This document shows positions 59,356 to 64,000 of a stretch of DNA of 64,000 bases, piece after piece. Under the pieces are notes generated by a model. The model had not been told where the DNA came from, ran no database searches, and saw only the letters and a list, made by a program, of their open reading frames with translations. Positions within the stretch are counted from its first letter, which is position 1, and each line of letters begins with the position of its first letter. The translations under genes and the position numbers were made by a program. Origin of the DNA: Maridesulfovibrio sp. (lineage in GTDB: Bacteria; Desulfobacterota; Desulfovibrionia; Desulfovibrionales; Desulfovibrionaceae); the NCBI RefSeq assembly GCF_963667685.1, contig NZ_OY763931.1:186001-250000 (forward strand), read 5' to 3'.

Positions 59356-60234
59356 CTAGATAAGGCCGCTTTTTTTAAGCTGAGCTTCTAGCTTGGCGTT
59401 GCTTTCGTCCATAAGGGGGACAAGCGGAAGCCTGAAGGAAGTTTCGAATTTACCCATCATGCCCAGAGCTGTTTTTACCGGAATCGGATTGGTTTCGACA
59501 AACATCATCCGGTTTACAGGCTGCATTTTGAAGTGCAGTTCCTGTGCCTTTTTCATGTCACCTGCACGATAAGCCGCACACATATCGGACATATCTTTAG
59601 GCATAATGTTGGCAACTACAGATATAACACCGTGACCGCCGAGGGCGAGCAGGGGCAGAACTGTGAAATCATCACCAGAGAGTACGCAGAACCCTTCGGG
59701 ACACTGTTCAATTACATCTGAAACCTGGCCAAGATTAGCTGTTGCTTCCTTAATGCCGACGACATCAGAAACTTCGTTGGCGATCATTGCTACGGTTTCC
59801 GGCATGCAGTTCAGTCCGGTGCGCCCGGGAACATTATACAGGATGAAAGGCATGGAAGCTTCTTTCGACAGGGCTTTGAAATGCGCCAGCAAGCCCGCAG
59901 GAGTAGGTTTATTGTAGTAAGGTGTAATTTGGAGTGTGGCATCTGCGCCTGCCTGTTTAGCAAGCAGGGTAAGGTTTACGGCTTCTTTAGTATTGTTGGA
60001 ACCCGCGCCAGCAATGACCGGGACACGTCCCTTGGCCTGCTCCACACAGATTCTGATAACCTCACCTTGTTCTTCATGGGTAAGTGTAGCCGCTTCTCCG
60101 GTTGTACCACAGGGTACAAGTCCGTCGATTCCTTGTTCAATCTGCCACTCAATCAGTTCGCGATATGCGTCCTGATCAATCTCTCCGTTTTTGAACGGAG
60201 TGACCAGAGCAGTGAATGCTCCTTGGAATGTCAT
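59356..60234 (-). CDS. dapA: 4-hydroxy-tetrahydrodipicolinate synthase
   Basis: The 292-residue aldolase joins pyruvate and aspartate semialdehyde in lysine and peptidoglycan synthesis. The pyruvate-binding GTTGEAATLTHEE, catalytic Tyr in PFILYNVPGRTG (about residue 133) and Schiff-base Lys in VVGIKEATANL (about 161) are present. It follows the selenoprotein candidate by 25 bases and may share its transcript. Confidence 0.97.
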   Translation of the reverse strand: MTFQGAFTALVTPFKNGEIDQDAYRELIEWQIEQGIDGLVPCGTTGEAATLTHEEQGEVIRICVEQAKGRVPVIAGAGSNNTKEAVNLTLLAKQAGADATLQITPYYNKPTPAGLLAHFKALSKEASMPFILYNVPGRTGLNCMPETVAMIANEVSDVVGIKEATANLGQVSDVIEQCPEGFCVLSGDDFTVLPLLALGGHGVISVVANIMPKDMSDMCAAYRAGDMKKAQELHFKMQPVNRMMFVETNPIPVKTALGMMGKFETSFRLPLVPLMDESNAKLEAQLKKSGLI

Positions 60235-60259
60235 TGTTTAAGCCTCCAAATTTGAATTA

Positions 60260-61144
60260 CTAATCATCCGAAATACCACTTATCAGCTTCGCAATTTCAG
60301 GTTCTGTGCGGAGTTTATCCGTCAGAGTCTGCAGGAACCATTTGACGTTTTCCCCGGAAGACCATTTAAAGTCCTTATCTCTGGAGGGCCACTGCAAAAT
60401 GTCAATCCTGTTAACTGCTTTTCCGGTAGGGTAGCTGCGCACCCATAAAGTCTTGCCGTTTACGTTAAGACTGCCGGTCATTCCCGGTCCGTCTCCGCTG
60501 CCCAGCAGAATATCCGGGGCGGACTCGCTAATTTCCGGGTTGGCGAGAAATTTCTTCTCCCTGAAGTATCCCCATGAACTCATGGCGATTACCAGATCCG
60601 ACTCCTTTTTGTTCTCCCTGATCAGCTTGGCGCATTTTTGAATAAGATCAGGAGGAAGTTCATCGGAACCCCGTTCAAGGTGAGGAAATATTATAAAGGA
60701 AACCTTTTTACCATTGGCAAGAGGTTTGATCTCAACGCGTACTTTTTCGTCGCTGGTCCAGTTTTTAGGAATTCCTACAGGGGAATTTTTCAGAAAACTA
60801 AATTCAGCAGGGCTAATAATTCCTAAATCATAATTCATGATTTGGAAAGCTTCAGCCAGCGCATTTCGTTTTTTATTGGAAACTATTTCGCCGGAAGTCG
60901 GCATAAATTCATATGCACCGCCAACAACAAGGACATCGTGCAGCTGCGCTGCACGCAGATCCTGAAGATATCCAGCCCGCCGGGCCAGACCACCAAGGGT
61001 TTTGTTTCCTCAGGTCGGGCAGGGGTTTACAGTCCCGAAAGTGTTGGCAGTGTCGGCAATAGACAATAGTACATCCTTGCCAGCGTGGGAGATTGAAGTC
61101 CCCATGCTGGCAAGGATAAGAAAAGCTAATATGAGAAATCGCAT
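60260..61144 (-). CDS. Probable selenoprotein (UshA-like, Cys-x-x-Sec), read through an in-frame TGA
   Basis: From ATG 61144 the frame encodes a signal peptide (MRFLILAFLILASMGTSISHA), then VNPCPT, a TGA at 61012-61010 (codon 45), and continues GNKTLGGLARRAGYLQDL without another stop to 60260, 294 residues in all. The TGA falls in Cys42-Pro-Thr-Sec45, a CxxU redox motif, just before LGGLARR, which follows a PCxC-type motif in calcineurin/UshA-like exported proteins. A SECIS-like hairpin (60970-60990; 9-bp stem, loop starting with G) begins its loop 28 bases after the TGA, inside the bacterial range. The ATG overlaps the HU stop (TAATG). The alternative is a nonsense-mutated gene or a separate frame from Met81 (60904), which has no good start. 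Confidence 0.75.
60970..60990 (-). promoter_or_regulatory. SECIS-like hairpin downstream of the in-frame TGA
   Basis: On the minus strand GUCUGGCCC pairs with GGGCUGGAU (9 bp with G-U pairs) around loop GGC. The first loop base is G and the TGA-to-loop distance is 28 bases, as bacterial SECIS rules require. The lower part is wobble-rich, so an RNA fold and a SelB test would be needed to be sure. Confidence 0.55.
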
Positions 61145-61419
61145 TAAGCGTTCAGATATTCTTTCAGCTCTTTACCGGGACGGAAAAAAGGCAGCTTTTT
61201 AGGGGTTACGTCAACAACCGCACCAGTCTTGGGGTTGCGTCCGGTGTACCCTTTGTACTCTTTCATCTTAAAGCTTCCGAATCCACGAATCTCAACTCTG
61301 TCGCCGCGAACGAGAGCCTCTTTGATAGCATCCACAAATGCATCAACTATTTCAGCAGATTCATCTACATGGAGGCCTTTTTCTTCCGCAAGATTCTTAA
61401 TCAGTTCGCTTTTGTTCAT
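61144..61419 (-). CDS. HU-family DNA-binding protein
   Basis: The 91-residue histone-like protein has the HU/IHF signature: MNKSELIKNLAEEKG, VEIRGFGSFKMKEYKGYTGRNPKTG with the beta arm RNPKTG, and PFFRPGKELKEYLNA. It bends and compacts DNA as a dimer. I chose ATG 61419 behind GGGAGAGG; a TTG four codons earlier is less likely. Its stop overlaps the start of the selenoprotein candidate. Confidence 0.95.
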   Translation of the reverse strand: MNKSELIKNLAEEKGLHVDESAEIVDAFVDAIKEALVRGDRVEIRGFGSFKMKEYKGYTGRNPKTGAVVDVTPKKLPFFRPGKELKEYLNA

Positions 61420-61513
61420 GTCCTCTCCCAAATCGTGTTGAGTTTGACAAGGCAGTGTTTATTACCAATACTGGTACAACTATGCCGAAAAGTTACCCTT
61501 TTCGCAAGCATTA

Positions 61514-62353: not shown

Positions 62354-63205
62354 TTAGTTTCCCGTAAATAAAAATTTCTTTTCATTGGCATGAACAAGGC
62401 TTTCCCTGGTCACTGACTCAAAATCCAAGATATCCGATGTCTTGACTTGATCCTTGCCGGCCTTTTTGGCTTCATAGAGCGATTTGTCTGCTTTGCAGAT
62501 CAGCTCATGCATCTCAATATCCACCATACCCTTGTAGCAGGATATTCCCGCCGAACAGGTGATGAAAAATTTTTCATCAGATCCTGGTATGTTGAATTTG
62601 AGATCGCGGACTTTACTTAGCAAGCGCTCCAGTAACTGCTGTGACTTGACCAGGCCCACTCCTGAAAGAATTATTGCGAATTCTTCTCCGCCTATACGGG
62701 CTGCGAGGTCATATCGCCTTGAATTGCGGGCCAGCAGGTCCGCAAAGTCGATGAGAACTTCGTCTCCTTTGAGATGTCCCCAAGTGTCATTGATCTTTTT
62801 AAAGTTATCAAGATCCAGAATTGCAAGGCTGACCGGTGTTTTGTTCCTTCGCGATCTCTCAATCTCCTGATCAAGGGTCCGCTCAAAAACTCTGCGGTTT
62901 GAAAGTCCGGTAAGGGGGTCGTGCTCTGTTTTGTAGGAAAGTTTTTGCAATACCGATTGAACATGATTCAGATGTGGGGCCATGTTCCGGTCCAGCGGCA
63001 TAGTAAGCCAGTCATTCAGGCCGTGTCTTTCCGCAAGAATTTCCCATGCCTCAAGAGTCATGCCCGGGCATAGTTTCAGCACGGCTAAACCTTCAGGGCA
63101 TTCATGGGAATGGCAGACCTTTTGCTCATTACAGAACTTGTCCCGCACAGAAAGAAGCTCTTCCATGAGATTTGCTTCATTCTCAGCAATGTACTCAGCG
63201 CTCAT
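62354..63205 (-). CDS. Diguanylate cyclase (GGDEF) with N-terminal Cys/His cluster
   Basis: The 283-residue protein makes cyclic di-GMP. The GGDEF domain (about residues 115-280) has DPLTGLSNRRVFERTL, DLDNFKKINDTWGHLKGDEVL and the active site ARIGGEEFAII (GGEEF). An inhibitory I-site RRYD lies five residues upstream. The N-terminus contains Cys25, Cys31, His32, His34, Cys36 and Cys46, a possible metal- or redox-sensing cluster. I chose ATG 63205 behind GGCGGAG; a TTG at 63226 would add 7 residues. The start overlaps prfB by 11 bases. Confidence 0.88.
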   Translation of the reverse strand: MSAEYIAENEANLMEELLSVRDKFCNEQKVCHSHECPEGLAVLKLCPGMTLEAWEILAERHGLNDWLTMPLDRNMAPHLNHVQSVLQKLSYKTEHDPLTGLSNRRVFERTLDQEIERSRRNKTPVSLAILDLDNFKKINDTWGHLKGDEVLIDFADLLARNSRRYDLAARIGGEEFAIILSGVGLVKSQQLLERLLSKVRDLKFNIPGSDEKFFITCSAGISCYKGMVDIEMHELICKADKSLYEAKKAGKDQVKTSDILDFESVTRESLVHANEKKFLFTGN

Positions 63206-64000
63206 TTTCTCCGCCGTATGCGTCAAGCATGAATTTTCTGATCAGTCCGTCAAGTTCTCCGTCCAGAACCGCCTCGACATTTCCGTCTTCGGCTCCGCAG
63301 CGGTGGTCCTTGACCAGTCTGTATGGTTGCAGAGTATATGTTCTGATCTGACTGCCGAAACCAATGGAATCCTTGGTGGCGTAGTCAGCTTTTTTGCTTT
63401 CTTCCTGCCTCTTGAGTTCCTGTTCATACAGGCGGGACTTGAGGACTTTCATGGCGGTTTCTTTGTTCTTCAGCTGGGATTTTTCATTCTGGCACTGAAC
63501 AACAATGTTTGTGGGCAGGTGTGTGATACGCACAGCAGAGTTCGTCTTGTTGACGTGCTGCCCGCCGGGACCGCTGGCCCGGAATACGTCCACCCGGATA
63601 TCATCTTCTTTTACTTCGATTTCAATATCCTGAGAAATCTCGGGATAGACGTCCACCGAAGCAAAGGAAGTATGTCTCCTGCCAGAGGCATCAAAAGGAG
63701 AAATGCGGATTAAACGGTGGATTCCGGCTTCCCCTTTTAAAAATCCGTACGCGTAAAGGCCTTCTATCCGCAGCGTAACACTTTTGATACCTGCTTCGTC
63801 GTCCGGCTGATAGTCAAGGTAGCTGGCTTTCCAGTTGCGTTTGTCGGCCCAGCGCAGGTACATGCGGAGCAACATCTCCGCCCAGTCCTGAGACTCGATT
63901 CCACCGGCTCCCGGGTGGATTTCCAGAATGGCTGTGCTTTTGTCTTCGGGGCCGGAGAGAAGAGCCGCAAGCTCTGTCTGTTCAACCATGCGGGCAAGTT
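63195..64000 (-). CDS. prfB: Peptide chain release factor 2, N-terminal part cut off
   Basis: At least 268 residues are visible up to the right window edge, beginning inside ELARMVEQ... and running to the stop at 63195. The catalytic GGQ (ASGPGGQHVNKTNSAVRI) and the RF2-type codon-recognition region (GRRHTSFASVDVYPE; RF2 reads UGA and UAA) are intact. Domain 1 and the start, including any programmed frameshift, lie outside the window. RF2 competes with selenocysteine insertion at UGA, relevant to the selenoprotein candidate 2 kb downstream. Confidence 0.95.
   Translation of the reverse strand, partial: LARMVEQTELAALLSGPEDKSTAILEIHPGAGGIESQDWAEMLLRMYLRWADKRNWKASYLDYQPDDEAGIKSVTLRIEGLYAYGFLKGEAGIHRLIRISPFDASGRRHTSFASVDVYPEISQDIEIEVKEDDIRVDVFRASGPGGQHVNKTNSAVRITHLPTNIVVQCQNEKSQLKNKETAMKVLKSRLYEQELKRQEESKKADYATKDSIGFGSQIRTYTLQPYRLVKDHRCGAEDGNVEAVLDGELDGLIRKFMLDAYGGENER

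Follow-up and report, generated by a model that had tools for sequence, protein, structure and literature searches.

An in-frame UGA between HU and dapA in Maridesulfovibrio very probably encodes selenocysteine in an UshA-like family 2 protein

We analyzed a window of 64,000 nucleotides from the genome of Maridesulfovibrio sp., the minus strand of which carries a gene, ushA2, at positions 60260 to 61144 (stop codon included). The gene matches UshA-like selenoprotein family 2 (NF049981, E = 1e-94) and specifies 294 residues when the UGA at codon 45 is read as selenocysteine (Sec). Its ATG (61144 to 61142) shares a single base with the TAA stop (61146 to 61144) of the gene directly upstream on the same strand, which encodes an HU-type DNA-binding protein (61144 to 61419, with the start taken as the ATG at 61419 and the open reading frame listed from the TTG at 61431). 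A first-pass annotation had described this overlap, along with a TGA at codon 45, in frame and followed by 249 further codons, and both are borne out on the minus strand, where the frame closes with a TAG at 60262 to 60260. Read by eye from the translation, residues 1 to 21 (61082 to 61144) resemble a signal peptide. The TGA itself (61010 to 61012) completes a CPTU motif, comprising Cys42 and Sec45, within N-P-C-P-T-U-G-N-K-T-L-G-G-L-A-R-R, and the translation confirmed the Cys-x-x-Sec motif that had been noticed ahead of LGGLARR. As anticipated, a plain annotation starts at 60904, with the table-11 list of open reading frames giving only 60260 to 60904 (214 amino acids) in this frame. A mechanical scan of the window for UGA read-throughs with a nearby Cys, requiring at least 30 open codons before the UGA and at least 80 after it, returned eight candidates, including ushA2.

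With Cys written in place of Sec45, the read-through protein scored 316.8 bits against the NCBIfam model NF049981, "UshA-like (seleno)protein family 2" (cut-off 140), and the match covered model positions 1 to 261 of 262. The CxxU motif of this family is present as C42-P-T-U45 with UGA at the Sec position, and we found no feature setting the ushA2 product apart from a member. A second model, NF041198 (UshA-like (seleno)protein PCGU), shares a homologous N-terminal part and a Sec before a GGLAR motif, but it is 519 positions long and has CxU rather than CxxU, and the ushA2 product reached only 41.6 bits against its cut-off of 275. A Pfam search of the product at E ≤ 1 gave nothing over cut-off and a lone sub-cut-off match to DUF2443 (E = 0.24), and a search of 39 family members at 0.01 gave no match. 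The family is not new, because it is already catalogued in NCBIfam and in print: Table 1 of a 2026 review (PMC13188914) contains the row "UshA-like selenoprotein family 2, NF049981, CxxU", with the source "GenBank annotated". A CxU UshA-like family appears in the family lists of PMC9312934 and of a 2008 GOS study (PMC2398784), the latter as COG0737 UshA-like. Searching the literature for the identifier NF049981 yielded no mention beyond the review, a search on UshA-like selenoproteins yielded no experimental study of the NF049981 family, and a search with D. vulgaris locus tags for this neighborhood yielded no paper.

We found a homolog of ushA2 in 43 of the 58 genomes searched (its own included), and 42 of these 43 have UGA at the aligned codon in at least one copy, the exception being genome G023. 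Extending the search to 297 genomes across the phylum, of which 122 had a match and only four exceeded the family cut-off, contributed a further 19 loci. Sixty-five loci were examined and two were dropped: L088, which went unmatched at 1e-5, and L060, a copy lying in two frames. The column for codon 45 in the remaining 63 homologous loci consisted of 61 UGA and 2 Cys codons, a tally that includes the window's own locus, the duplicate L039, and 15 loci (L083 to L087 and L089 to L098) from genomes scoring below the NF049981 cut-off, which was applied to genomes of the wider phylum search and not to the relatives in the 58-genome search. L039 duplicates the locus of G007; without it there are 60 UGA rows, and it was excluded from the stem and selection counts below. 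The first-pass annotation had named Cys or TGA at this column in homologs as supporting its reading, and one or the other occupies the column in every scored locus. The discarded L060 (G025:C2) is a second ushA2 copy, and its division between two reading frames would reflect either decay of the copy or an error in sequencing.

The homolog in G023 (L061) has the Cys codon TGC at the aligned position and retains the HU context. The selA profile had no match in this genome, which is rated 95% complete, and its best tRNA-Sec score of 47.9 bits is nominally above the cut-off of 47. Best tRNA-Sec hits were 75 to 87 bits in 55 of the 58 genomes, and several of these genomes show further hits of 47 to 53 bits elsewhere, for which reason we infer that the marginal hit in G023 is another tRNA rather than tRNA-Sec. 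The second Cys codon (TGT) belongs to L054 (G018:C28), a paralog of a TGA copy in the same genome; no HU, dapF, or dapA gene turned up within the surrounding 8 kb. Strong tRNA-Sec hits occur in 13 of the 15 genomes without an ushA2 homolog, so the protein is dispensable and can disappear while Sec remains. The other two, G022 and G048 (84% complete), gave neither a selA match nor a strong tRNA-Sec. Replacement of the other half of the motif is rare: 37 of 39 aligned proteins have Cys42, and the UGA persists where it has become Ile (L037 in G036) or Glu (L063 in G017), both in the HU context. In L098, which is more distant, CxxU lacks its Cys.

Conservation ahead of the UGA, another expectation of the Sec reading, was assessed by comparing the window gene to 16 relatives of the same genus. 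Pooled pN/pS was 0.128 in residues 22 to 44, compared to 0.57 in residues 1 to 21, 0.36 in residues 46 to 80, and 0.35 in residues 81 to 294. Among the four segments, constraint is strongest in the one directly ahead of the UGA, and codons 22 to 44 of ushA2 are under strong purifying selection. The genome also carries all three components of the Sec machinery that were sought: selA (611.5 bits, cut-off 267.9), selB (390.2 bits, cut-off 242.25), and the tRNA-Sec gene selC (82.5 bits, cut-off 47).

Bacterial SECIS elements have their loop about 16 to 37 bases after the UGA and a G early in that loop. A SECIS-type hairpin of 9 bp lies at 60970 to 60990 on the minus strand, +20 to +40 after the UGA, and its GGC triloop at +29 to +31 agrees with both parts of this rule and with the 9-bp, G-first hairpin that had been reported from the letters. 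Relative to 200 synonymous resamplings of its own codons, the window hairpin had p = 0.02. The hairpin alone is unremarkable against dinucleotide shuffles, with z-scores of +0.48 for a 63-nt stretch, −0.74 for 53 nt, and −1.63 for 26 nt, where 17 of 200 shuffles were as stable. Across homologs, all six inner pairs were found at the fixed place (loop at +29 to +31) in 42 of 60 UGA genes and the full stem was absent there in 18, compared to 500 synonymous resamplings of each gene's own codons, in which full stems averaged 7.1 and never exceeded 15. A thinned set of 39 genes had 24 full stems (null mean 4.2, maximum 10). This null ignores shared descent; relative to it, synonymous codon choice appears to have kept the stem clearly above chance. 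In L059, one pair was kept through a two-sided change from C-G to U-A. Neither Cys homolog retains the full stem at this place, and L061 can form a different hairpin. When the hairpin was chosen freely, 31 of 61 UGA genes reached p ≤ 0.1 relative to synonymous versions of themselves, and in 58 of 61 a G occupied the first or second base of the loop. The 60 nt after the UGA had an ordinary total folding energy (median synonymous p of 0.26).

Downstream of ushA2 on the minus strand lies a dapA-like gene (59356 to 60234), named from its sequence; the names HU, ParA, DapF, and DapA are putative and follow sequence resemblance. Neighbors were counted at 45 loci in the 43 homolog-bearing genomes, including second copies in G018 and G025, and the counts are lower bounds in that at least one locus stops at a contig end. 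HU was directly upstream in 38 loci, with a ParA/MinD-like gene ahead of it in 34, while dapA came next, or after dapF, in 37, and dapF adjoined ushA2 in 17. The order HU, ushA2, (dapF), dapA is conserved, as judged from genes so named. The second copies in G018 and G025 have none of these neighbors in the stretch covered. In other genera (e.g., L066 and L068), dapF separates ushA2 from dapA, but none of the 17 genomes belonging to the window's genus has it at this position, the gap in the window (60235 to 60259) having no dapF within it. The fourth gene upstream of ushA2, at 63195 to 63989 on the minus strand and cut by the window end, is one we take to be prfB-like; its end overlaps the next gene, which is GGDEF-like, and its presumed product, RF2, ends translation at UGA.

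To what fold does the protein belong? A profile of 39 homologs matched 37 sequences in the PDB at E ≤ 0.01, the best being 2z1a (6.3e-15). All but one of these are named 5'-nucleotidase, nucleotidase, UshA, SoxB, YfkN, or cyclic-nucleotide phosphodiesterase/nucleotidase (36 of 37), and the remaining match, 3qfk, is uncharacterized. SoxB was matched at 1e-07. We take the metal ligands of these enzymes to be the D and H of DxH, the D of GDxF, the N of NHE, a later H, and two residues in GGHxH. In the profile alignment to 2z1a, the D and H of NDTH, the D of AGD, the N of GNHE, and the H of SHLG and of GGH face N34, F36, Y78, P112, S190, and G217 of the window protein, and G219, two residues beyond G217, served as the seventh position. 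All ligand counts refer to an alignment of 39 loci hand-chosen across genera. All seven ligands are missing from the window protein, which thus lacks the dinuclear metal site of UshA and 5'-nucleotidases; 28 of the 39 proteins likewise keep none, and the maximum in any was two. The CPxU motif comes just after the residues that align with DxH in active enzymes. Full 5'-nucleotidases also carry a C-terminal domain, and most of the PDB chains matched were about 510 to 570 residues long. Hence, by profile, the ushA2 product shares a domain with the 5'-nucleotidase/UshA and SoxB metalloenzymes, but it keeps no metal-ligand position, lacks the length for the C-terminal domain, and has CPxU instead. 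An AlphaFold model built from a two-sequence alignment was poor (pLDDT of 46.8), and therefore Sec was placed in the fold by sequence alignment alone. With the metal-ligand residues lost, the initial description of the protein as UshA/metallophosphoesterase-like is right about its descent alone, and this loss makes the name "UshA-like" misleading about function.

Whether the UGA is simply a stop, leaving a pseudogene or a 214-residue frame translated from 60904, can be judged from these results. Such a stop would accord with the table-11 list and with the ordinary stability of the hairpin against dinucleotide shuffles. It does not accord with the near-universal UGA at the aligned codon in homolog-bearing genomes, strong purifying selection before it, preservation of the stem through synonymous choice, or the Cys codon in G023, where selA had no match, and we give it almost no credence. 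The proposal that the UGA codes for Sec is instead supported by the family match, homolog codons, upstream conservation, hairpin conservation, and the Sec machinery. It is also very unlikely that the protein works as an UshA-type phosphohydrolase with Sec in an accessory or metal-binding role: the protein is clearly homologous to 5'-nucleotidases and SoxB, and NCBI uses the name UshA-like, but no ligand position survives in the window protein, no aligned member exceeds two, and 294 residues leave no space for the C-terminal domain.

Since no metal-ligand position is kept, the protein probably serves as a selenol/thiol redox protein of the periplasm and not as a phosphatase. We favor, at a probability of roughly 80%, an exported UshA-like family 2 selenoprotein with a hairpin-directed Sec45, a shortened descendant of the 5'-nucleotidase/UshA fold that acts as a selenol redox protein in the periplasm. 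SelB and tRNA-Sec would read codon 45 as Sec under direction of the downstream hairpin, and the N-terminus suggests export to the periplasm. There, Sec45 may attack or reduce a substrate, and Cys42 would usually resolve it via a selenenylsulfide. The Cys-Sec pair is not the whole mechanism everywhere, given the replacements of Cys42 in L037 and L063 and the absence of a CxxU Cys in L098, and Sec seems more essential than Cys42 because the UGA stays in the two former loci. The same retention of Sec, together with the SoxB match and hosts that look like sulfate reducers, could point to a SoxB-like carrier or transferase of sulfur or selenium compounds, having a sulfur-binding pocket and a Sec nucleophile with no dithiol cycle. 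We consider this unlikely, as the neighbors identified are ParA-like, HU, dapF, and dapA, and Cys42 is present in nearly all aligned proteins.

These results imply that ushA2 is very probably a selenoprotein gene, despite the broken look that its early stop codon gives it. In the literature covered by our searches, the NF049981 family appeared only as one table row derived from GenBank annotation, for which our analysis provides independent support. To this it adds a likely SECIS, a conserved gene order, the loss of metal ligands, and an exchange between Sec and Cys in a genome where selA had no match. The redox reading may extend further, although we hold this tentatively and doubt it more than we believe it: a phosphoesterase fold would have swapped its two-metal center for Sec in place, giving rise to a new periplasmic selenoenzyme in which Sec, and not the Cys-Sec pair, is essential, and whose place beside HU, dapF, and dapA has been kept in much of the order.
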